This document shows positions 31,511 through 40,933 of a stretch of 64,000 nt of DNA, in pieces. Both the position numbers and the translations under genes were made by a program. Source of the stretch: Draconibacterium orientale (GTDB taxonomy: Bacteria; Bacteroidota; Bacteroidia; Bacteroidales; Prolixibacteraceae); NCBI RefSeq assembly GCF_000626635.1, contig NZ_CP007451.1, positions 2,985,501 through 3,049,500 of the forward strand, in the 5' to 3' direction. Position 1 is the first letter of the stretch. Each line of letters starts with the position of its first letter. Under the pieces are notes generated by a model. The model was not told where the DNA came from. It saw only the letters and a list, made by a program, of their open reading frames with translations, and searched no databases.

Positions 31511-31877
31511 GGTTTTCTGCGGTCGTGTAATTGCCCGGCAAACTTTGTGGCTGGCTTGTTGCAGCGCTGCGGCAAACAAAAAAACTTATTGGCTCGGCTG
31601 TTGCACGGCTGCAACAAGCAAGAAATTTTTGTGGCGAGCTTGTTGCACGGCTGCGGCGTGCAAGAAAATGTTTTTGGAGGCCTGTTGCAGCGCTGTAATT
31701 AGGAAAAAGTTTTGTGGCTCGCCTGTCGCAGTGTTGCAACACGCAAAAAAATGTTGTGGAAGGCTTGCCGCAGAATTGTAATTAGGAGGAAATTTAGTGG
31801 AAGGCTTGTCGCGCAACTGCAGGAGGCGGGAAAAAAGTGTGGCTCGCCTGTTGCAAGGCTGCGGCAAGGTGATTCGG
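31511..31877. repeat. Degenerate tandem array, about seven 41-43 bp units plus partial ends
   Basis: Units begin at 31556, 31599, 31640, 31683, 31724, 31765 and 31806, with partial copies before and after. Each starts with (T)TGTTGCA or a variant, then about four bases, then TGCAACA/TGCGGC, an A-rich stretch, and ends in GTGG-n(2-3)-GC. The first 18 bases of most units can fold into a hairpin (perfect in the second unit, 31599-31616). Unit lengths of 41 and 43 do not keep a reading frame, so the long ORFs across the array on both strands are by-products of few stop codons. Confidence 0.75.
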
Positions 31878-31963: not shown

Positions 31964-34120
31964 CTATTCTTCTTCCTGCTCGGCTTCGTAAGCTTTCAGC
32001 AGTTCTTCCTGTACATCGGCAGGAACTTTTTCGTATCCGTCGAAACTTATGCTAAATACGCCTCTTCCACCGGTAATCGAACTCAGCGAAGTAGTGTATT
32101 TAAACATTTCTTTCTGTGGAACTTTGGCTGTAATTTTTTCCAGGCCTTTTTCCGAGCCCATGCCCATAATCATGGCACGACGTCCCTGCAGGTCGCTCAT
32201 GGCATCACCCATGCGGTCTGATGGTACCCAAACTTCAAGATTTAAGATTGGCTCAAGAATTTTAGGACTGGCATTTTTAAAGGCCATGCTGAAGGCATTA
32301 CGTCCGGCCAGTTTAAACGAAATTTCGTTCGAGTCAACCGGGTGCATTTTCCCGTCGTAAACATAAACGATAATATCACGGGCATACGAACCGGTAAGCG
32401 GGCCTTCCTCAATCTTTTCCATTATTCCTTTCAGAATAGCCGGTAAAAAACGGGCGTCGATCGATCCACCAACAATACTGTTAACAAATACCAGTTTTCC
32501 GCCCCAGTCCAATTTGTGCTCTTCAACGGCGCGAACCGAAATCTTCTGTTCCTTATCGCCAAATTTAAACATGGTTTTAGGTGCAGCACCTTCTTCGTAA
32601 GGTTCAATAATCATGTGTACCTCGCCAAACTGTCCGGCGCCACCCGATTGTTTTTTGTGGCGGTAATCGGCCTGGGCAGGTTTGGTAATGGTTTCACGAT
32701 ACGGAATTTTTGGCTTCAGGTATTCCACATCTACTTTGTGAACATGATCGAAATACCATTTTAATACGTTAAGGTGGTATTCGCCCTGTGCGTGTATCAG
32801 TTGTTGTTTTAATTCTTTCGAGTACTCAATTACGTAGGTTGGATCTTCGTATTTGATCTTGCTTAAAATTTCGCCTACTTTCTCGTCGTCGGAATCGTTA
32901 ACAGCCTTGGCTGCTACCGTATGGCGCGGCGTAGGGAACTCTATCGGAGCAAAAGCCGTTCCAATTTCTTTGGCTGCCAGGGTTTGGTTAAACCGTGTTT
33001 CTTTCAGTTTAACGGTGCAGCCCAGGTCGCCTGCATGAAGCTCGTCCACTTTCTCGCGGCTTTTACCATCGGGTACAAACACCTGCGATAAACGCTCTTT
33101 GTTGCCTGTTTTCGAGTTGATGAGGTCTAAACCCTCTTTTACAACCCCCGACATTACTTTGAAATAGGTGATCTCGCCAACGTGTGGTTCAACAGCAGTT
33201 TTAAAAACAAAAAGGCTTGGCGGTTGCGAAGCATCCATTGTTACCTCTTTACCGGCAACAATTTTACCCATTTTCTTCTCTTTAGGTGTCGGAGCAATGT
33301 TGGTAATAAATTCCATCAATCGGCCAACGCCAATACTTTTTCTGGCGCAGGTACAGAATACCGGGAACAAGGTAAGGTCGAGCATTCCCAATTTAATACC
33401 TTTGCGCATTTCGTCTTCGGTAAGTGTTCCTTTATCGAAATAAAGCTCCATTAAAGCTTCTTCGTTTTCAGCTGCTTTTTCAACCAGTTCGTTGTGCAGT
33501 TCTTCTGCTTTTTCCAATTCCGATTCAGGAATATCTGAAATCTCAGGTTTTCCGCTATCGTCTTTGTAGGTGTACATTTTCATTTTAAGTACATCGATGA
33601 TAGCCGAAAAGCCTGTTCCTGGATCAACGGGGTACTGTACTACAGTGGTTTTATTGCCAAAAGCAGTTTTGCACTGGTCGAGGGTGCTGTCGAAATTTGA
33701 GTTTTCGTGATCGAGCTGGTTAAAAACCACAACAAGTGGCGTATGTGCATTGTCGGCATGGCGGGCTGCGGCTTCGGTACCGGCCTCAATACCGTTTGAT
33801 GCGTTAACCGTTAGCAAGCCAAGTGCTGTAACACTTAACGACGAAACAACACCTCCGCAAAGATCGTCCATCCCCGGGGTGTCCATTATATTTATTTTCT
33901 TTCCGTTGTATTCGGTATGCATCAGGGTTGAAAAAACAGAATTGCCATAATCCTGCTCAATCGGGTTGTAGTCGGATACGGTATTCTTCGAACCCACATC
34001 ACCTTTACGATTTATGATTCCACCCTCGAACAGCATAGCTTCTGCAAGGGTGGTTTTCCCACTGCCGGCATTACCAATTAGAGCAATATTCCGAACTTCA
34101 TCGGTTTTGTAAACTTTCAT
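31964..34120 (-). CDS. Elongation factor G-like GTPase (paralogue)
   Basis: 718 aa with the full EF-G domain order. G-domain motifs: P-loop IGNAGSGKTTLAEA and DTPGMDDLC; the base-recognition motif reads NQLD where canonical EF-G has NKxD. Domain II follows (about 300-380), then domains III-V, with YRETITKPAQADYRHKKQSGGAGQF and GRRAMIMGMGSEKG. A canonical fusA lies at 55808, so this is the divergent second copy common in Bacteroidota (EF-G2-like). It may be a slower or condition-specific translocase, a recycling factor or a GTP-independent form; the sequence does not say which. Single gene with its own promoter and terminator. Confidence 0.88.
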   Translation of the reverse strand: MKVYKTDEVRNIALIGNAGSGKTTLAEAMLFEGGIINRKGDVGSKNTVSDYNPIEQDYGNSVFSTLMHTEYNGKKINIMDTPGMDDLCGGVVSSLSVTALGLLTVNASNGIEAGTEAAARHADNAHTPLVVVFNQLDHENSNFDSTLDQCKTAFGNKTTVVQYPVDPGTGFSAIIDVLKMKMYTYKDDSGKPEISDIPESELEKAEELHNELVEKAAENEEALMELYFDKGTLTEDEMRKGIKLGMLDLTLFPVFCTCARKSIGVGRLMEFITNIAPTPKEKKMGKIVAGKEVTMDASQPPSLFVFKTAVEPHVGEITYFKVMSGVVKEGLDLINSKTGNKERLSQVFVPDGKSREKVDELHAGDLGCTVKLKETRFNQTLAAKEIGTAFAPIEFPTPRHTVAAKAVNDSDDEKVGEILSKIKYEDPTYVIEYSKELKQQLIHAQGEYHLNVLKWYFDHVHKVDVEYLKPKIPYRETITKPAQADYRHKKQSGGAGQFGEVHMIIEPYEEGAAPKTMFKFGDKEQKISVRAVEEHKLDWGGKLVFVNSIVGGSIDARFLPAILKGIMEKIEEGPLTGSYARDIIVYVYDGKMHPVDSNEISFKLAGRNAFSMAFKNASPKILEPILNLEVWVPSDRMGDAMSDLQGRRAMIMGMGSEKGLEKITAKVPQKEMFKYTTSLSSITGGRGVFSISFDGYEKVPADVQEELLKAYEAEQEEE

Positions 34121-34476: not shown

Positions 34477-34503
34477 TTTGTCTTAAAAAATCGTTTACAT
34501 TTG
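34477..34503 (+). promoter_or_regulatory. Predicted promoter of the sulfite-reduction operon
   Basis: TTTG (34477-34480) and TACATTTG (34496-34503), spacer 15 bp, a little short. The transcript would start near 34508-34512, inside the palindrome at 34509-34524, and include the leader ORF. Confidence 0.55.
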
Positions 34504-34508
34504 CAGTG

Positions 34509-34524
34509 TGTGATATTAGTCACA
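34509..34524. promoter_or_regulatory. Crp-like palindrome TGTGA-N6-TCACA at the operon start
   Basis: Exact TGTGA and TCACA half sites separated by six bases, just downstream of the -7 box. Here a bound protein would block transcription. A Crp/Fnr-family regulator of unknown target is encoded at 19371-20063, but nothing ties the two directly. Confidence 0.5.
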
Positions 34525-34545
34525 TAGAAATAATTTTAAAGCGCG

Positions 34546-34644
34546 ATGGTTAATAGTTTTTCGAAAATAACAATGATGGAAATGACATGTATGACATGTA
34601 TGATGTGTATGTGTTGTAACGGTATTGTTGTGCAGAGGAACTGA
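34546..34644 (+). CDS. Cys/Met-rich leader peptide of the sulfite-reduction operon
   Basis: 32 codons from ATG 34546 (or 23 from ATG 34573 in the same frame). The core reads MTCMTCMMCMCC, with five Cys codons, all TGT, and seven Met codons in 15 from 34573. It ends VVQRN and TGA at 34642-34644. Too short and too biased to be an enzyme. It precedes an intrinsic terminator by about 28 bases, and the genes after it make siroheme and sulfite reductase, that is the sulfide used for cysteine and methionine. The plain reading is a leader peptide whose translation senses charged tRNA-Cys (and perhaps tRNA-Met). Alternatively it could be a small metal-binding peptide, given the CxxCxxCxCC pattern. Confidence 0.7.
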   Translation: MVNSFSKITMMEMTCMTCMMCMCCNGIVVQRN

Positions 34645-34672
34645 CCATAGATTGAAAATATTACTCGATTTT

Positions 34673-34709
34673 AAAGGCTCTTCTGTATTTGCAGAAGAGC
34701 TTTTTTTTT
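34673..34709 (+). terminator. Attenuator terminator upstream of the DUF2061 gene
   Basis: GCTCTTCTG (34677-34685) and CAGAAGAGC (34692-34700) form a perfect 9-bp stem, extended by AAAG/TTTT pairs, then nine T. It lies between the leader ORF and the first structural gene. Segment 34630-34639, in the last codons of the leader, can pair with 34679-34688 and would prevent this hairpin. Confidence 0.85.
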
Positions 34710-34756
34710 GAGAATAATTCAGATGACGATTGATATTTTAAACCGTAATATGGCCA

Positions 34757-34996
34757 ATGGGAAAAGAAAATGGAAATACAGTTGAGCGAAAACGAAGGAG
34801 TATCGTAAAAACGATTTCGTGGCGTACCATCGGAACGATTGATACAATTCTGATTTCGTGGATGGTGGTGGGCGATATAAATTTTGCGGTAACCATTGGC
34901 GGTGTCGAGCTGTTTACTAAAATGGCTTTGTACTTTTTTTCACGAGCGGGCATGGAACAAAATCAGCTTCGGAAGGGTTACACATACACCAATTGA
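34757..34996 (+). CDS. DUF2061-family small membrane protein
   Basis: 79 aa: a basic N-terminus, then the family motif KTISWRTIGTIDTILISWM and two hydrophobic helices, ending GVELFTKMALYFFSRAG. DUF2061 proteins occur in sulfate or sulfite assimilation clusters in several phyla; their role is unknown, perhaps membrane association or transport. It is the first gene after the attenuator and lies 18 bases before the siroheme gene, so it is under the same control. Confidence 0.85.
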   Translation: MGKENGNTVERKRRSIVKTISWRTIGTIDTILISWMVVGDINFAVTIGGVELFTKMALYFFSRAGMEQNQLRKGYTYTN

Positions 34997-35014: not shown

Positions 35015-35467
35015 ATGGCAAACCAAAATTTTTTACCCATTGCAATTGATATTGCCAACCAGAAAATACTGATTGTTGGAGGCGGACAAAGTGCTTACAG
35101 CAAGCTAAAGATTTTGCAGCGACACAATGCCGAGGTAGAAATACTGGCCATTGATGTATGCGACGAAATAAAAAACAGCGGAGTGAAATACATGCAAGCA
35201 CCGTATCACAAAAGCTATTTAAAAGACTATTTAATGCTTTATTCCTGCTCGAATAACGCCGAGCTGGACAGGCAGATAGAAAAAGACTGCCGCGAAGAAA
35301 AGGTATTAGTTAATATTCATGATAAACCATCTCGCTGTCAGTTTGTTTCTCCTGCTATCTACCGGCATGGAAATATTTCGGTGGCGGTGAGCTCGAATGG
35401 CGAGAATGTTTATGAATCGATAAGAATAAGAAATTTAATAAAAGATAAGTTGCAACTTGAAGATTGA
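35015..35467 (+). CDS. Precorrin-2 dehydrogenase, short form (siroheme synthesis)
   Basis: 150 aa, like the N-terminal Rossmann part of CysG/Met8. It starts with IAIDIANQKILIVGGGQSAY and has Asp in VNIHDKPSRCQF, at the place of the catalytic Asp of CysG, then SPAIYRHGNISVAVSSNG. It oxidises precorrin-2 to sirohydrochlorin with NAD+. The C-terminal helical part of CysG/Met8 is missing, so whether it also inserts iron is open; no separate chelatase is in the window. It acts after cobA (40208) and before cysI, which needs siroheme. The name used varies (cysG N-terminal module, sirC). Confidence 0.85.
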   Translation: MANQNFLPIAIDIANQKILIVGGGQSAYSKLKILQRHNAEVEILAIDVCDEIKNSGVKYMQAPYHKSYLKDYLMLYSCSNNAELDRQIEKDCREEKVLVNIHDKPSRCQFVSPAIYRHGNISVAVSSNGENVYESIRIRNLIKDKLQLED

Positions 35468-35508: not shown

Positions 35509-37332
35509 ATGAGTTTAAAAACAAATCCATTAAATGATGCACAGTTAAGTGCTTTAAGCCAGTTGGTTGAAGGCTTGAATAAAGAGCAGACTGTATGGTT
35601 AAATGGTTATTTTGAAGGGCGATTGGCAGCCCTCGGAGGAGTTGACGTGCCAGCTGTTACAGGAACAACTGTTAGCACCGCAGCAGCAGCTCCGCCACCG
35701 CAAAGTTCGATTAAGCTTACCATTTTGTATGGTACCGAAACCGGACATTCGCAGGGACTGGCCGAAAAATTGGGTGAGAAGGCTTCGTTTAAAGGAATTG
35801 ATGCCCGGGTTTTGAGTTTGTACGATTACAATTACAAAAAGCTGAATGAAGAAGACAATGTGGCGATAATTGTTAGTACACATGGCGAGGGCGATCCGCC
35901 TGATATGGCCGAAGATTTTTACAAATATGTAACCGGGCCGCGTGCTCCTCAACTTAATGGCGTAAACTATTCGGTGCTGGCCTTGGGCGATAAAACCTAC
36001 AAGCATTTTTGTAAAACCGGCGAAGAAATTGATGTGGCCTTAAAAAGCTGCGGTGCATACCGTGTTACGCCGGCCGTAAAATGCGATGTGGATTACGAAC
36101 AACCTTCGGAAACATGGATGAACCTCTTTTTACTGAACCTCTCACCGGCTGAAACTCCGGAACCTGTGGTTACAAGTGCGCCAACAGCACCAGCATCATC
36201 TTCAGCAGGAGGTTTTGGCGAGGAGTTCTCAAAATCAAATCCGTACATGGCCACTGTGCTCGAGAAAGTTAGGATTACCGGAGACGATTCGGATAAGGAA
36301 GTGTATCATGTTGAACTTTCGCTTGAAGGATCGGGCCTGGAATATGAACCTGGCGATTCGCTGGGGATTTTTACCAAAAACCCGGAAGCTCTGGTCGGGG
36401 ATATTCTGGCTTTTACAGGATTCGATGCGGAGCAGAAAGTTGATGTTGGTGAAGAAGAAATGAGCATAAAAGAGGCTTTGTCGCACCATCTTGAAATTAC
36501 AATGCTGACCTTCGATCTGCTGAAAAAATACCAGGAGAAAACAAAGAATGCCGAACTCGCAAAACTACTTGTCGACGATGAGGCGCTCGACGAATATTTG
36601 TATGGTCACGATGTGCTCGATTTATTGGAAGACTTTCCTTACGATTGGAACGCTCACAAATTAGTAGAAGTTTTACGCCCGATTCCGCCACGTTTGTATT
36701 CTATCTCATCAAGCATGGAAAGTGTGGGTGAAGAAGTTCATGTAACGGTTTCAGTTGTTCGTTACGAGCGTAAAAACCGCAAACGCAACGGCGCATGTTC
36801 GTCGCACCTGGCCGACAGCATTGAGATTGATGAGCAGATTCCGGTTTATATCGACAAAAATCCGTCGTTTAAGTTGCCGGCCAATGGTTCAAAAATTATC
36901 ATGGTTGGTGCCGGAACAGGTGTAGCTCCATATCGTGCATTTATGCAGCATCGCGAAAGTTTAGGCATTAAAGGCGAGTCGTGGTTGTTTTTTGGCGACC
37001 GTCGTTTTAACTCCGATTTTCTGTACCAAACCGAGTGGCAAAAGCTGTTAAAGAACGAAATACTAACCAAAATTGATGTAGCTTTTAGTCGCGATCAGGA
37101 AGAAAAAGTTTATGTGCAGCACAAGCTGAAAGAGCAGCAAAAGGAGGTGTTCGATTGGCTGGAAAACGGTGCGCACTTTTATTTGTGCGGCGACATGAAA
37201 TACATGGCCAAAGATGTAAACAAGGCTTTGCTTGATATCATTCAGACTCAGGGTGGTGTTCGCGAGGAACAAGCCGAAAAATATGTGAAAAACTTGAAAC
37301 GTGAGAAGCGTTTCCAAATCGATGTATATTAG
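35509..37332 (+). CDS. cysJ: Sulfite reductase flavoprotein subunit
   Basis: 607 aa diflavin reductase passing electrons from NADPH through FAD and FMN to CysI. Residues 1-60 form an N-terminal extension with an Ala/Pro-rich linker. The flavodoxin domain is at about 65-210 (TILYGTETGHSQGLAEKL, STHGEGDPPDMAEDFYKY). After a second linker the FAD-binding domain has RLYSISSS and the NADPH domain GAGTGVAPYRAFMQHR, ending in FQIDVY. The C-terminus ends in Tyr, as in other diflavin reductases. cysI follows after 149 bases containing three hairpins. Confidence 0.95.
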   Translation: MSLKTNPLNDAQLSALSQLVEGLNKEQTVWLNGYFEGRLAALGGVDVPAVTGTTVSTAAAAPPPQSSIKLTILYGTETGHSQGLAEKLGEKASFKGIDARVLSLYDYNYKKLNEEDNVAIIVSTHGEGDPPDMAEDFYKYVTGPRAPQLNGVNYSVLALGDKTYKHFCKTGEEIDVALKSCGAYRVTPAVKCDVDYEQPSETWMNLFLLNLSPAETPEPVVTSAPTAPASSSAGGFGEEFSKSNPYMATVLEKVRITGDDSDKEVYHVELSLEGSGLEYEPGDSLGIFTKNPEALVGDILAFTGFDAEQKVDVGEEEMSIKEALSHHLEITMLTFDLLKKYQEKTKNAELAKLLVDDEALDEYLYGHDVLDLLEDFPYDWNAHKLVEVLRPIPPRLYSISSSMESVGEEVHVTVSVVRYERKNRKRNGACSSHLADSIEIDEQIPVYIDKNPSFKLPANGSKIIMVGAGTGVAPYRAFMQHRESLGIKGESWLFFGDRRFNSDFLYQTEWQKLLKNEILTKIDVAFSRDQEEKVYVQHKLKEQQKEVFDWLENGAHFYLCGDMKYMAKDVNKALLDIIQTQGGVREEQAEKYVKNLKREKRFQIDVY

Positions 37333-37481: not shown

Positions 37482-39182
37482 ATGAGTGAAAGTATTAACT
37501 GGCTTGAGCTTTCAGAAGTTGAAAAGCTCAAGTACGATAGTAATTACCTACGCGGAACTTTGCCCGAAAGTCTGGCCGACCCGATCACCGGGGCCATTTC
37601 GGATGGGGACACGCAAATTTCAAAATTCCACGGAATTTACCAGCAGTGGAACCGCGATGTTGATAAAGAGAGAAAGCGTCAAAAGCTGGAACCGGCTTTT
37701 TCATTTCTGATACGACTGCGCATGCCCGGCGGCAAGTTTACGCCAAAGCAGTGGCTGGCAATGGACGAACTGTCGGATAAATATGCCAACGGTACCCTAA
37801 AACTAACTACGCGGCAAACGTTTCAGTTACATGGTGTGCTGAAACGGAACCTGAAGGCTACCATTAAGGAGATGAACGACCAGTTGATGGACACCATAGC
37901 GGCTTGTGGCGACGTAAACCGTAATGTGATGAGCCACGCCAATCCGGCACAGTCGCCGTTTCATGCTGAAGTAATTGAAACAGCTAAAAAGATCAGTGCG
38001 CATCTTTTGCCAAAAACAAGTGCCTACCACGAAATCTGGCTGGAAAAAAAACTGGTGGCCGACAGTAAAGAGGAAGTGGAGCCGTTGTACGGAAATCGTT
38101 ACCTGCCACGTAAATTTAAAATTGGCATTGTAATTCCGCCGCATAACGATTGCGATGTTTTTTCGCAGGATTTGGGTTTTATAGCTATTATTGAAAACGA
38201 AAAAATTGTTGGCTACAATGTAGCTGTTGGCGGTGGCTTGGGTACTACGTTTGGCAAACCTGAAACCTACCCGAGAACCGGAACTGTGATTGGCTTTTGT
38301 ACGCCCGATCAGATTGTTGACGTGGCTGAAAAAGTAGTTGCGGTACAACGCGACAACGGCAACCGCAAAGACCGGAAACAAGCCCGATTGAAATACACCA
38401 TCGACAGAATGGGCGTAGAGGAATTTGTGGCAGAACTGACCAAATATTTGGGTTATGAACTGGAGCCGGAACGCGCATACACTTTAGAGCGAAACGGTGA
38501 TGATTTTGGCTGGATAAAAGGCAGCGACAAAAAGTGGCACCTCACTTATTTTGTTGAAGGTGGCCGCGTGCTCGACCGGGGTGAATTCAAACTGAAAACG
38601 GCTCTTCGGGAAATTGCAAAAGTGATCGACGGTGATATTATCCTTACCGGGAACCAAAACCTGATCATCTCGGGAGTGAGCACCAAAGTGAAAACCCAGG
38701 TTGACGCTTTGCTAAAAACTTACGGGGTATCTCCTGAAGACATTTCGGGCTTGCGTAAGAATTCGATTGCCTGTGTGGCTTTGCCGACTTGTCCGCTGGC
38801 TTTTGCTGAGGCCGAACGTTACCTGCCTGATTTGGTGTCGAAAATTGAAACGATTCTGAATGAATACCAGTTGGGTAAAGAAGAAATTGTAATTCGTATG
38901 ACCGGCTGTCCGAATGGTTGCGGACGCCCTTACCTGGCCGAAATTGGCCTGATCGGTAAATCGCCGGGCTACTACAATTTATACCTTGGTGGAAGTTTTA
39001 ACGGATCAAGATTGAACACGTTGTACAAACAAACCATCAACGAGGAAGAGATACTGAACGAGCTGTGTCCGATAATTGCTGATTTTGCAGCAAACCGCAA
39101 GGACGGTGAGCGTTTTGGCGACTTTGTCATCCGCAAAAACTATGTGGAGGAAATTAAAGAAGGCAAGAATTTTAAACACTAA
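37482..39182 (+). CDS. cysI: Sulfite reductase hemoprotein subunit
   Basis: 566 aa, siroheme and [4Fe-4S] enzyme reducing sulfite to sulfide with six electrons. The cluster and siroheme ligands are the four cysteines Cys431, Cys437 (CVALPTC) and Cys476, Cys480 (CPNGC). The two ferredoxin-like repeats carry KLTTRQTFQLHG and GDVNRNVM, which line the active site. The length matches the CysI family rather than plant-type ferredoxin enzymes, in agreement with cysJ upstream. Followed by a repeat-bearing gap of 183 bases. Confidence 0.96.
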   Translation: MSESINWLELSEVEKLKYDSNYLRGTLPESLADPITGAISDGDTQISKFHGIYQQWNRDVDKERKRQKLEPAFSFLIRLRMPGGKFTPKQWLAMDELSDKYANGTLKLTTRQTFQLHGVLKRNLKATIKEMNDQLMDTIAACGDVNRNVMSHANPAQSPFHAEVIETAKKISAHLLPKTSAYHEIWLEKKLVADSKEEVEPLYGNRYLPRKFKIGIVIPPHNDCDVFSQDLGFIAIIENEKIVGYNVAVGGGLGTTFGKPETYPRTGTVIGFCTPDQIVDVAEKVVAVQRDNGNRKDRKQARLKYTIDRMGVEEFVAELTKYLGYELEPERAYTLERNGDDFGWIKGSDKKWHLTYFVEGGRVLDRGEFKLKTALREIAKVIDGDIILTGNQNLIISGVSTKVKTQVDALLKTYGVSPEDISGLRKNSIACVALPTCPLAFAEAERYLPDLVSKIETILNEYQLGKEEIVIRMTGCPNGCGRPYLAEIGLIGKSPGYYNLYLGGSFNGSRLNTLYKQTINEEEILNELCPIIADFAANRKDGERFGDFVIRKNYVEEIKEGKNFKH

Positions 39183-39365: not shown

Positions 39366-40205
39366 ATGAGAAGAACAGTATCGATATTAGGTTGCGGATG
39401 GCTGGGAACGGCGTTGGGACGATCACTGCTCCGAAAAGGCTGGAAAGTAAAAGGCTCGGTGGCATCAACGCAAAGTTACAACCGGCTTGAGGTAAGTGGG
39501 ATTAGTGCATTTTATGTAAAAGCAAAAGCCCAGTCGCTTACCGTGGATTACAATAGTTTTTTTAATACCGATGTGCTTATTATCAGCATTCCGCCAACGC
39601 GAACCGATTGTGTGGAGGATTCATTTCCGAAGAAAATTGAGCAGGTAATTGAGAAAGTGCAGGAGCTCAGCATTAAAAAAGTTCTTTTCATTTCTTCAAC
39701 GTCGGTGTACGAATCGAAAAACACGGAAGTGAAAGAAGGCGATGAGGGAACACCTGAGAAAGCAAGCGGCAGGGCTTTGCTGAAAGCTGAGAAACTGTTG
39801 CTGGAGAATCCGGCCTTTCAAACTACCGTAATTCGTTTTGGCGGATTAATTGGTTACGACCGCAATCCGGCACGTTTTGTTCAGCACCGAAATGCCCCGG
39901 TTTTTGATTCGCCTGTGAATTTGATTCACCGCGACGATTGTGTAAATATCATCTCGCAAATTATTGAAAAGGATATTTGGGGCGAGGTGTTCAATGCATC
40001 GAGTCCGGAGCATCCCGGGCGAAATGAGTTTTATGCGAAGGCGGCAAAGATCAGTGATCTGCCAATTCCGGTGTTTTCAAAAGATAAAGGAAGTTTCAAG
40101 GTGATTAACAGCGATAAACTTATTGGGGCATTGGAGTATAAGTTCGTTTATCAAAGTCCGATGGACTATTTAAAAGAAGTGGAAGAGTGGGCCTACAGAA
40201 TTTAG
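39366..40205 (+). CDS. NAD(P)-dependent epimerase/SDR-family protein
   Basis: 279 aa, Rossmann fold with an N-terminal glycine motif (SILGCGWLGTALGRSLL), as in the YeeZ-like atypical SDR group. ISSTSVYE stands where SDR enzymes have their active-site Ser and Tyr region. The substrate is unknown. Its stop is two bases before the start of cobA, so the pair is translationally linked, and it belongs to the sulfite/siroheme operon; a role there is inferred from position only. Confidence 0.75.
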   Translation: MRRTVSILGCGWLGTALGRSLLRKGWKVKGSVASTQSYNRLEVSGISAFYVKAKAQSLTVDYNSFFNTDVLIISIPPTRTDCVEDSFPKKIEQVIEKVQELSIKKVLFISSTSVYESKNTEVKEGDEGTPEKASGRALLKAEKLLLENPAFQTTVIRFGGLIGYDRNPARFVQHRNAPVFDSPVNLIHRDDCVNIISQIIEKDIWGEVFNASSPEHPGRNEFYAKAAKISDLPIPVFSKDKGSFKVINSDKLIGALEYKFVYQSPMDYLKEVEEWAYRI

Positions 40206-40207
40206 CG

Positions 40208-40933
40208 ATGGAAAAGTTGGGGAAAGTATATATTGTAGGAGCAGGACCCGGACCGGCAGATTTGCTTACCGTAAAGGCGCATAGTTGTATTAAAAATGCA
40301 GATGTGATTTTATACGATGCGTTGATATCGAAGGATGTTCGGGCGCTTTTCCCTGAAAATGCAGAACTTATTTTTGTGGGTAAACGTGCCGGCGATGGCG
40401 TTGATGTAACCGAGCGGCAAAGCTCCATCCACCAAAAAATTGAAAAGCACGCCAAACAGGGAAAAGTGGTGGTGCGCGTGAAATCGGGCGATCCGATGAT
40501 TTTTAGCCGGGGAGCGGAAGAAACCTCATTTCTGCTGGAGAAGAATATCCCTTTTGAAGTGGTGCCCGGCATTTCGGCGTTTAATGCGGCATCGGCTGAA
40601 TTTGGCGTTCCGTTAACCGACCGGCGTGGAAGTAACTCGCTGCACCTGCTTTCGGGGCGCGATGTGGCCCGAAAACTACTCAGCGTAAAACAATTGGTAA
40701 GTATTGTTGAGAACCGGGGAACAGCTGTAATTTACATGGGTACGAAAGTACTGGAAGAAATCTACGAAGCGCTGGATACTGTTCACCGCGAGTGTATTCA
40801 GACTACGATTGTGTCGCGCTCCGGCCGGTGGGACGCGCAAAAGTTTAAAGGAACATTGGAAGAAATGGTTTCATTAAATAGTGAAACGCCTGTAAAAACC
40901 CCGGCTTTGATTTATCTCCGGATGGAATGTTAA
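40208..40933 (+). CDS. cobA: Uroporphyrinogen-III C-methyltransferase
   Basis: 241 aa SAM-dependent enzyme that methylates uroporphyrinogen III twice to precorrin-2, the branch from haem to siroheme. Family motifs: VYIVGAGPGPADLLTVKA, VGKRAGDG, RVKSGDPMIFSRGAEE and VVPGISAFNAASAEFGVPLTDR. Start set at ATG 40208, two bases after the SDR stop; a longer frame from 40187 would overlap that gene. The last four bases overlap the stop of the convergent minus-strand membrane protein. Confidence 0.94.
   Translation: MEKLGKVYIVGAGPGPADLLTVKAHSCIKNADVILYDALISKDVRALFPENAELIFVGKRAGDGVDVTERQSSIHQKIEKHAKQGKVVVRVKSGDPMIFSRGAEETSFLLEKNIPFEVVPGISAFNAASAEFGVPLTDRRGSNSLHLLSGRDVARKLLSVKQLVSIVENRGTAVIYMGTKVLEEIYEALDTVHRECIQTTIVSRSGRWDAQKFKGTLEEMVSLNSETPVKTPALIYLRMEC

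Follow-up and report, generated by a model that had tools for sequence, protein, structure and literature searches.

Ribosome-mediated attenuation is a classic kind of regulation, with the trp, his and thr attenuators of Enterobacteria as its general model. Here we describe a candidate attenuator in a window of 64,000 nucleotides (nt) of Draconibacterium orientale (the whole stretch of DNA analysed, positions 2,985,501 to 3,049,500 of NZ_CP007451.1, in a genome of one 5.13-Mb contig), in which a 32-codon leader open reading frame (ORF) rich in cysteine and methionine codons precedes the genes for sulfite reduction and siroheme synthesis. As in the enterobacterial attenuators, the leader ORF carries codons for the product of the operon and is accompanied by the pairings 1:2, 2:3 and 3:4 and by an intrinsic terminator. 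It is unlike them in that a single core mixes Cys with Met codons, this core is placed between segments 1 and 2, and the putative promoter is of the Bacteroidota type. An earlier reading of this DNA, made without database searches (the sequence-only reading), had proposed that a ribosome stalling on the Cys codons releases the operon from a terminator.

Mycobacterial Cys leaders are reportedly cysteine-responsive attenuators with leaderless ORFs, in work attributed to Canestrari in 2020. Runs of Cys codons have been described before the cys operons of Mycobacterium and P. acnes and before cbs of B. longum, and the accessible part of that account gives the Mycobacterium leaders no conserved terminator hairpins, suggests Rho, and places the Cys codons near the stop (PMC1262725). 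The sequence-only reading had mentioned Cys-codon leaders of mycobacteria, and such leaders are indeed described for Actinobacteria (PMC1262725). The present leader resembles them in having Cys-codon runs before cysteine genes, and a leader of the mycobacterial type was ruled out by the 42 nt between the -7 box and the ATG, the eight codons between the last core Cys and the stop, and the terminator.

Two further systems share part of the design. The uORFC-8-2 motif before cysS of Rhodobacterales has tandem Cys codons in a short ORF and a U run fitting an intrinsic terminator, as here, and attenuation was proposed for it; it differs in having two Cys codons, mainly UGC, inside the first stem, in preceding cysS, and in belonging to Alphaproteobacteria, and the part of the paper available mentions no Met codons (PMC8632094). 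Membership in that motif was rejected, since the window leader precedes DUF2061-cysG-cysJI and not cysS; the two would work alike as separate motifs. The metL leader before metNIQ of Streptomyces lividans, which ends RCMCRRMCAF, likewise joins Cys and Met in the leader of a sulfur amino acid operon, and differs in being called methionine-dependent by its authors, in its actinobacterial host and in preceding a transporter operon (PMC8079986, accessible part).

Within Bacteroidota, the available text on the Flavobacterium psychrophilum transcriptome sees 'strong clues' that leader peptides attenuate amino-acid operons, leaving the operons unspecified and naming no sulfur case (PMC9723704), and a B. 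thetaiotaomicron map contains small ORFs reminiscent of leader peptides (PMC7366714, in part). The main text of a premature-terminator survey contains no word beginning 'Bacteroid' (PMC2965389). Among the literature matches listed, with supplements and subscription papers outside the scope, no attenuator of a Bacteroidota sulfur gene was found, in line with the sequence-only reading, which knew of no described case in this phylum; a literature search for the string MMCMCC gave a single match, an unrelated psychology trial. The fresh part is thus the core of two amino acids and its spread over unrelated sulfur genes.

A predicted four-segment switch before the sulfite-reduction operon

The elements of the putative switch, all on the forward strand, are as follows.

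34546-34644 (+): leader ORF of 32 codons, MVNSFSKITMMEMTCMTCMMCMCCNGIVVQRN, from ATG at 34546 to TGA at 34642-34644; a strict counterpart stands at 53/60 DUF2061 loci, the window's included.
34588-34617 (+): putative regulatory core CMTCMMCMCC, TGT (Cys) five times mixed with ATG (Met); relatives keep the richness and the order drifts.
34546-34575 (+): segment 1 (protector); 34546-34551, 34555-34562 and 34567-34575 pair with 34643-34648, 34635-34642 and 34623-34631, respectively, in the minimum-free-energy fold of the leader.
34630-34642 (+): segment 2, the last leader codons and first stop base, a near copy of the terminator 3' arm (RNAfold and pair counts).
34649-34671 (+): small hairpin in the antiterminator loop, bringing segments 2 and 3 together (folds; seen by eye in the closest relatives too).
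34676-34688 (+): segment 3, the terminator 5' arm; in the antiterminator 34679-34688 pairs with 34630-34639, and 34676-34677 with 34641-34642.
34673-34704 (+): intrinsic terminator stem-loop (3:4) of 14 pairs with a 4-nt loop, found by terminator scan; its T run (nine T) lies at 34701-34709.

The leader peptide has five Cys residues, all encoded by TGT (codons starting at 34588, 34597, 34606, 34612 and 34615), and eight Met residues (ATG); the leader ORF with five TGT codons and a Met-rich core, noticed in the sequence-only reading, can be read directly from the DNA. The hairpin followed by nine T that the same reading had reported was also recovered, with a stem of 14 pairs in place of the 9 bp given there, and the pairing it had drawn between 34630-34639 and 34679-34688 was reproduced exactly by RNAfold. 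Its model lacked the protector helix 1:2, in which the start of the ORF pairs with its end, and which completes the four-segment design of the trp type.

RNAfold of 34530-34709 gave helices 1:2 and 3:4 at -54.7 kcal/mol, compared with a shuffle mean of -32.7 (z -6.7, 0/200 shuffles as good), and the 1:2 duplex by itself reached -19.5 against a shuffle mean of -9.0, with 0/200 shuffles as good. Folding of 34629-34690 gave the 2:3 antiterminator at -16.2 kcal/mol (z -3.1, 1/200 shuffles as good), which was also obtained, at -16.2 kcal/mol, when the fold was limited to the RNA between a stalled ribosome's edge and a polymerase standing just past segment 3. Folding in both states, as the sequence-only reading had suggested, therefore gave 1:2 with 3:4 without a ribosome and 2:3 with the core blocked. 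With both strands scanned, the 701-nt region contained two terminator-like sites, compared with a shuffle mean of 0.2.

On this evidence and the comparisons below, the leader is very probably a ribosome-mediated transcription attenuator of the trp/his type, sensing charged tRNA-Cys and probably tRNA-Met and controlling the sulfite-reduction and siroheme operon. In untranslated RNA, helices 1:2 and 3:4 would fold and transcription would stop. A ribosome that is not delayed would reach the stop codon and cover segment 2, and the terminator would form. A ribosome stalled on the core, when Cys- or Met-tRNA is short, would keep segment 1 from segment 2; the freed segment 2 could then pair with segment 3 once this is made, the terminator would be blocked and the operon would be transcribed. 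Given a ribosome edge some 15 nt beyond the first base of the P site, a ribosome halted with the last TGT (34615) in its A site would expose the RNA from 34628 onwards, immediately ahead of segment 2. From this design we infer a response to cysteine or methionine supply.

Leader conservation across DUF2061 loci

DUF2061 was searched for in 140 genomes of the family and matched in 62 of them, with 75 rows in all, of which 60 distinct loci were examined, the window included, and 15 mostly weaker or fragmentary rows stood outside the count. The relatives were thus picked by the downstream gene and not by the leader, and the retrieved stretch held a cysG or cysJ match at 60/60 loci. By strict criteria (three or more Cys in the peptide, and five or more Cys+Met within nine residues), a Cys/Met leader with a terminator was present at 53/60 loci, and a terminator followed 54/54 of the leaders scanned. 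Four of the loci missed by the strict scan (L223, L233, L239 and L243) carried, by eye, a weaker Met/Cys leader and a terminator-like hairpin. In the other three (L237, L238 and L247) an open frame reached DUF2061, so that this gene directly follows another, is not first in the transcript, and no leader is expected. At L012, L013, L015 and L224 the leader lay about 1 kb upstream of DUF2061; the intervening gene in L012 (same genome as L076) is glutamyl-tRNA reductase-like (GlutR_N), and by eye L013 and L015 resemble L012 in this. Leaders at loci of the window's genus were identical to those of Draconibacterium and Maribellus records (Prolixibacteraceae, Marinilabiliales, Bacteroidota). Relatives that keep the operon and lose the Cys-rich ORF, an outcome that the sequence-only reading had named as contrary to it, were not encountered beyond these four weak leaders and three loci with DUF2061 not first.

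The 18-base Met-Met-Cys-Met-Cys-Cys codon pattern occurred in 34/140 genomes of the family, compared with 0 for the backwards pattern and 0/140 for the reverse codon order, which indicates that the core codon pattern is not due to chance, with shared ancestry adding to its frequency. The frequency of this order, 34/140 against 0/140 in reverse, would also suit an arrest peptide, in which a fixed nascent motif such as MMCMCC stalls the ribosome in reply to a small molecule and not through codon hunger, as would the recurrence of the order in other gene classes, for which the search had selected. However, common descent accounts for a frequent order within the family, and in the sets chosen by gene the order drifted, as in MCMCMCMCC, NNMCCCMCC, MTCTMMCMC, NMTTMCCCM, SMCMCSCM and MMCCKMMQMCIPxCCC, while the Cys/Met content persisted. 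Among the DUF2061 relatives, the cores read MTCMMCMCC (13 loci), MACMMCMCC (6), MCMCMCMCC, NNMCCCMCC, VNIMCCMCC, MCASMCMCM and others. Since the order drifts and the richness stays, codons rather than a fixed peptide appear to be kept, which is what the sensing of hungry codons predicts, and a fixed arrest peptide, which should keep its order, is very unlikely here.

Core means per nine residues were 3.6 Cys and 3.7 Met, both biased upwards because the strict scan selects for richness. As core Met codons were as frequent as Cys codons, the attenuator would probably be a sensor for both amino acids.

Outside the core, the peptides were alike at their ends, with SSE near the start (SSEI) and QK near the end. 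Such residues could be expected of a functional thiol-rich micropeptide, with the terminator setting a fixed level of the operon. However, QK (CAGAAG) repeats part of the terminator 3' arm and SSE (TTCTTCTGA) is complementary to it, so that both are conserved because RNA pairing segments encode them; in the second class of leaders, found before OsmC genes (below), the peptide mostly ends HVEG because GTGGAGGG is its segment 2; and the core has neither fixed order nor fixed length. A micropeptide is accordingly hardly credible as the explanation, and attenuation accounts for the conserved residues through RNA pairing.

In the window's own genome, a 21-mer search with up to three mismatches returned this leader as its only match. 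A 15-mer search with up to two mismatches returned 73 places, compared with 40 for the reversed control; frames were read at the three one-mismatch places, of which one (L411) lay within a longer frame and two were short frames (L410, MCICCR; L412, MCMCFIRKEK). A loose pattern of seven W-K-B codons matched at 1040 places and was dropped as uninformative. One such attenuator was thus recognised in this genome by sequence, and leaders with a different codon order could escape these searches.

Conservation and covariation of the predicted helices

Pairs were counted in two sets. The first comprised 24 rows (L002-L025: the window, 22 further loci of its genus and a single locus from a different genus), with L026 and later rows left out. 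The second comprised 52 leaders of all genera, with L245, a leader without the SSE/QK ends, left out; here pairs were counted from sequence anchors, since MAFFT, run on 53 rows at once, put segment 2 in the wrong place from one genus to another. An anchor on a consensus motif tends to raise the pairing at that motif itself; the information lies in the flanking and variable positions.

In the 24 rows, helix 2:3 was paired in 192/192 cells, compared with 48-76% (maximum 75.8%) in versions slid by 1-3 columns. One of its pairs showed a double change from A-U to G-C in seven rows, and pairing, double-changed cells and covariation score were above all 500 shuffles. Helix 3:4 was paired in 98.1% of 264 cells, compared with 46-63% (maximum 62.9%) in slid versions. 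For helix 1:2, in which 13 pairs were tested, 69.6% of 312 cells were paired with 14 double-changed cells, and 0/500 shuffles were as high on pairing or covariation score.

Across the 52 leaders, all three helices exceeded their maxima in 1000 row permutations, with 457/468 cells against 438 for 2:3, 286/312 against 285 for 1:2, and 454/468 against 446 for 3:4. The two most variable pairs of 2:3 were each kept in 50/52 leaders, against permutation maxima of 47 and 40. The edge pair of 2:3 was C-G in 26 rows, T-A in 16, T-G in 8 and unpaired in 2; T-A was found by eye in both genus g1 and genus g2, so that the same change was probably made more than once. Shuffle tests on single sequences gave p<=0.05 for 2:3 in 38/53 leaders and for 1:2 in 43/53. 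Segment 2 was in frame in 52/52 leaders and started 14 nt (33/52) or 11 nt (12/52) past the last core Cys codon, an offset that matches the spacing a stalled ribosome would need. Taken together, these counts indicate that three mutually exclusive predicted helices are all conserved, with compensating changes clearest in 2:3. A lack of compensating changes in the hairpins, which the sequence-only reading had held to be contrary to its proposal, was not what the rows gave; in the antiterminator, changes on both sides keep the pair.

Promoter and 5' end of the leader

Two elements precede the leader ORF.

34496-34503 (+): putative -7 promoter box TACATTTG of the Bacteroidota type, by the TAnnTTTG consensus.
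34509-34524 (+): perfect palindrome TGTGATATTAGTCACA at the likely transcription start, a candidate 5'-end RNA hairpin or Crp/Fnr-type operator.

The Bacteroidota -7 promoter consensus is TAnnTTTG. It was found within 170 nt before the core in 51/53 leaders, in some cases well away from its usual position, compared with 14% of 1080 random 170-nt windows from the same loci. A sigma-70 promoter scan gave no match at the leader, and a -33 element is not clearly recognisable. The promoter reported in the sequence-only reading has a candidate in the box at 34496-34503.

The palindrome TGTGAYNNNNRTCACA lies 5 nt 3' of the -7 box and was present with at most two mismatches in 25/25 rows L002-L026 (24 loci of the window's genus plus a single locus from a different one); the other 28 rows had no palindrome at that place. 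As RNA it would form a 5'-end hairpin in which some changes are replaced by G-U pairs, and 26/45 distinct 5' ends (all genera) folded better than shuffles at p<=0.05. It may be either a DNA operator or an RNA 5' stabiliser.

Similar leaders before other sulfur genes

The Met-Met-Cys-Met-Cys-Cys pattern was found in 9/395 genomes of the phylum, with no reversed-pattern matches among the matches listed. A scan of named genomes gave at least 118 stretches, of which 114 lay outside long frames and 48 had a terminator; many of the remaining stretches, among them most of those outside Bacteroidota, appear to be chance occurrences. By Pfam, on one example each, the genes downstream were OsmC, a cysteine-synthase-type pyridoxal-phosphate (PLP) enzyme, a phosphoadenosine phosphosulfate (PAPS) reductase (in Flavobacterium), a Cys/Met-metabolism PLP enzyme and GlutR. 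The Cys/Met-metabolism PLP enzyme is of the metY type, in Saprospiraceae by eye and in Balneola by an identical leader. Among 36 chosen loci, a set that includes near-duplicates and some Bacillota, 31 had a terminator, and 2:3 was above shuffles at p<=0.05 in 25/31.

With OsmC as query, a leader was present at 16/21 scanned loci of the family and absent from five, and nine more loci were without the searched motif. Within the family, these leaders make up a second class, which stands ahead of either OsmC or a gene of the cysteine-synthase type (loci L259-L277, L077, L089, L128, L138 and L202).

For metY, a leader was found at 16/30 best-matching loci (antisense control 0) and, in regions from many families, at 8/60 (antisense control 1), of which L351 and L373 seem to be chance matches. 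Family f7, by likeness to named records likely Flavobacteriaceae, has markedly different metY leaders, MKTIAxxxMMCCKMMQMCIPxCCCQK; leaders of this type (L319-L329 and L334) have terminators, and their segment 2 overlaps the final Cys codons together with QK and the stop.

Before cysH, the leaders had a terminator in 2/2 cases and 2:3 above shuffles in 2/2. As a general home of the leader, cysH was rejected: of 30 loci, 22 had the searched motif, and a Cys/Met leader was found only in L289 and perhaps L307, where a later scan of the stretch gave no leader. The eight loci without the searched motif included that of the window's own cysH (L300). At cysH loci L304 and L306, the upstream gene resembles, by eye, an Rrf2-type regulator. 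L289 (genome G196, before cysH) and L331 (before metY) each carried a tandem of two different Cys/Met leaders with a terminator apiece, and both leaders of L289 had a matching segment 2. The device is patchy in Bacteroidota and not universal.

The hairpins of the other classes were unlike those of the DUF2061 class in sequence (TGTGGAGGGTG with AGCCCTTCACA, CTGAGGGGTTA with AAACTCCTCAA, ATGCAAGGCCTT with TAAGGCCTTTGCA); as they are unrelated between classes, complementarity is kept while sequence is not. This bears on the possibility that the RNA senses a metabolite, a protein or uncharged tRNA directly, as a riboswitch, T-box or protein-binding leader, with the ORF incidental. Such sensing would fit the high degree of structure of the leader (z -6.7) and the palindrome or 5' hairpin conserved in the window's genus, but the hairpin sequences differ entirely between gene classes and the Cys/Met ORF stays, and conservation extends to the frame of the ORF, its stop and its core codons, with segment 2 in frame in 52/52. 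Rfam covariance models gave no gathering-score match in the 64-kb window or in the leader; at a relaxed threshold the leader had 13 matches, all below gathering and judged to be chance, with no T-box or SAM family among them. Identity as a T-box or SAM riboswitch was dropped for want of a covariance-model match, and direct sensing by the RNA is extremely improbable.

Further stretches with the pattern were observed at several sites. Short ORFs in L141 (Flavobacterium), L189 and L206 have MMCMCC as their very last residues and stop some 50 nt ahead of a gene of the TonB-dependent-receptor type (Plug domain by Pfam in L141), with no terminator found, and are perhaps a different, translation-level device. 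L113 (Mucilaginibacter) and L205 likewise have short ORFs containing MMCMCC, roughly 210 nt ahead of the gene for an AhpC/TSA-family protein (identified by Pfam in L113), again with no terminator found. MMCMCC leaders with a terminator were seen in L123 and L164 (Lachnospiraceae) and in L149 (Bacillota). The segment 2/terminator pairs of L123 and L164 change in step (CCCGGGC/GCCCGGG and CCCAGGC/GCCTGGG). Behind the leader lies an SBP_bac_3 binding protein in L164 and an ATP-binding cassette (ABC) ATPase with a NIL domain (MetN type) in L149, where 2:3 was not significant.

Weighing the attenuation model

Attenuation as proposed in the sequence-only reading is supported, at the level of sequence, by the comparative tests above, above all the leader at 53/60 loci and the 192/192 paired cells of 2:3. 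Several observations weigh against it. In the stalled molecule the completed terminator, at -26.8 kcal/mol, is more stable than the antiterminator, at -16.2 kcal/mol, so that antitermination must be kinetic, with 2:3 winning by forming first, and the window's own 2:3 duplex was not extreme compared with shuffles (p=0.10). Within the 24 rows, two measures of 2:3, the number of double-changed pairs and the number of pair types, were not above shuffles (451 and 491 of 500 as high), nor were nearly all measures of 3:4, where covariation, with one double-changed cell, was not clearly above shuffles. Helix 1:2 was more variable, its best slid version reaching 66.0% compared with 69.6%, and appears by these counts to be firm at its centre and not at its flank. 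The permutation controls all ignore kinship. Besides the upward bias of the core means, some of the weak leaders (L239 and L243) hold one core Cys codon among several Met codons. In the other classes, 1:2 was significant in 8/31 leaders, six of them OsmC/cysK, and 17/17 metY leaders had a terminator with 2:3 above shuffles in 3/17 only. The model further needs a coupling of ribosome and polymerase that is presumed for Bacteroidota, and its support consists of sequence and comparison.

The operon and its surroundings

The leader lies in an intergenic gap of 636 nt that separates a divergent EF-G-like gene (from 34120 downwards) and DUF2061 (34757) and contains the -7 box, the palindrome, the 32-codon leader ORF and the terminator. 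The gene order after the leader is DUF2061-cysG(N)-cysJ-cysI-NAD(P)-binding protein-cobA.

31964-34120 (-): EF-G-like GTPase, divergent from the leader (Pfam EF-G domains in 32000-34117).
34757-34996 (+): DUF2061 small membrane protein, first structural gene (PF09834, 56.7 bits).
35015-35467 (+): siroheme synthase N-terminal (CysG-type) domain protein (PF13241, NAD_binding_7; TIGR01470, 89.9 bits).
35509-37332 (+): cysJ, sulfite reductase flavoprotein (TIGR01931, 721.5 bits).
37482-39182 (+): cysI, sulfite reductase hemoprotein (TIGR02041, 804.7 bits).
39366-40205 (+): NAD(P)-binding protein, a sub-threshold Pfam match (PF13460, 22.3 bits vs a cut-off of 27.2).
40187-40933 (+): uroporphyrinogen-III C-methyltransferase of the cobA/cysG C-terminal type (TIGR01469, 213.8 bits).

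These profile scores bear out the DUF2061, siroheme and cysJI genes named in the sequence-only reading. The operon carries out the six-electron reduction of sulfite and makes the siroheme that this requires. The sulfide so made feeds cysteine as well as methionine synthesis, which would explain a core made of both codons.

Degenerate direct repeats of 42/84 nt occupy the intergenic stretch 31544-31877, with five copies of the 84-nt unit, the other four 61-71% like the reference, and are a source of spurious Cys-rich frames.

Discussion

A broader reading is possible, to which we give somewhat less than even weight. Attenuators of this dual-codon Cys and Met family may be a main sulfur-assimilation control in Bacteroidota, having repeatedly arisen or moved, with unrelated hairpins before DUF2061/hemA-cysG-cysJI, OsmC-cysK, cysH and metY, some of them in tandem, and with a core that would read both amino acids at once, which would imply close ribosome-polymerase coupling. 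The Lachnospiraceae would then hold look-alikes, one of them before an amino-acid-type binding protein gene.

The matches listed in the literature contain no account of sulfite assimilation switched on by attenuation in Bacteroidota. The 200-nt leader is a test system of reporter size, in which the codons, the stop and the pairing segments can be altered singly. If the proposal is true, an attenuator of the E. coli trp type works in Bacteroidota, which would need ribosome and polymerase to be in step there, and one leader core can read two amino acids.

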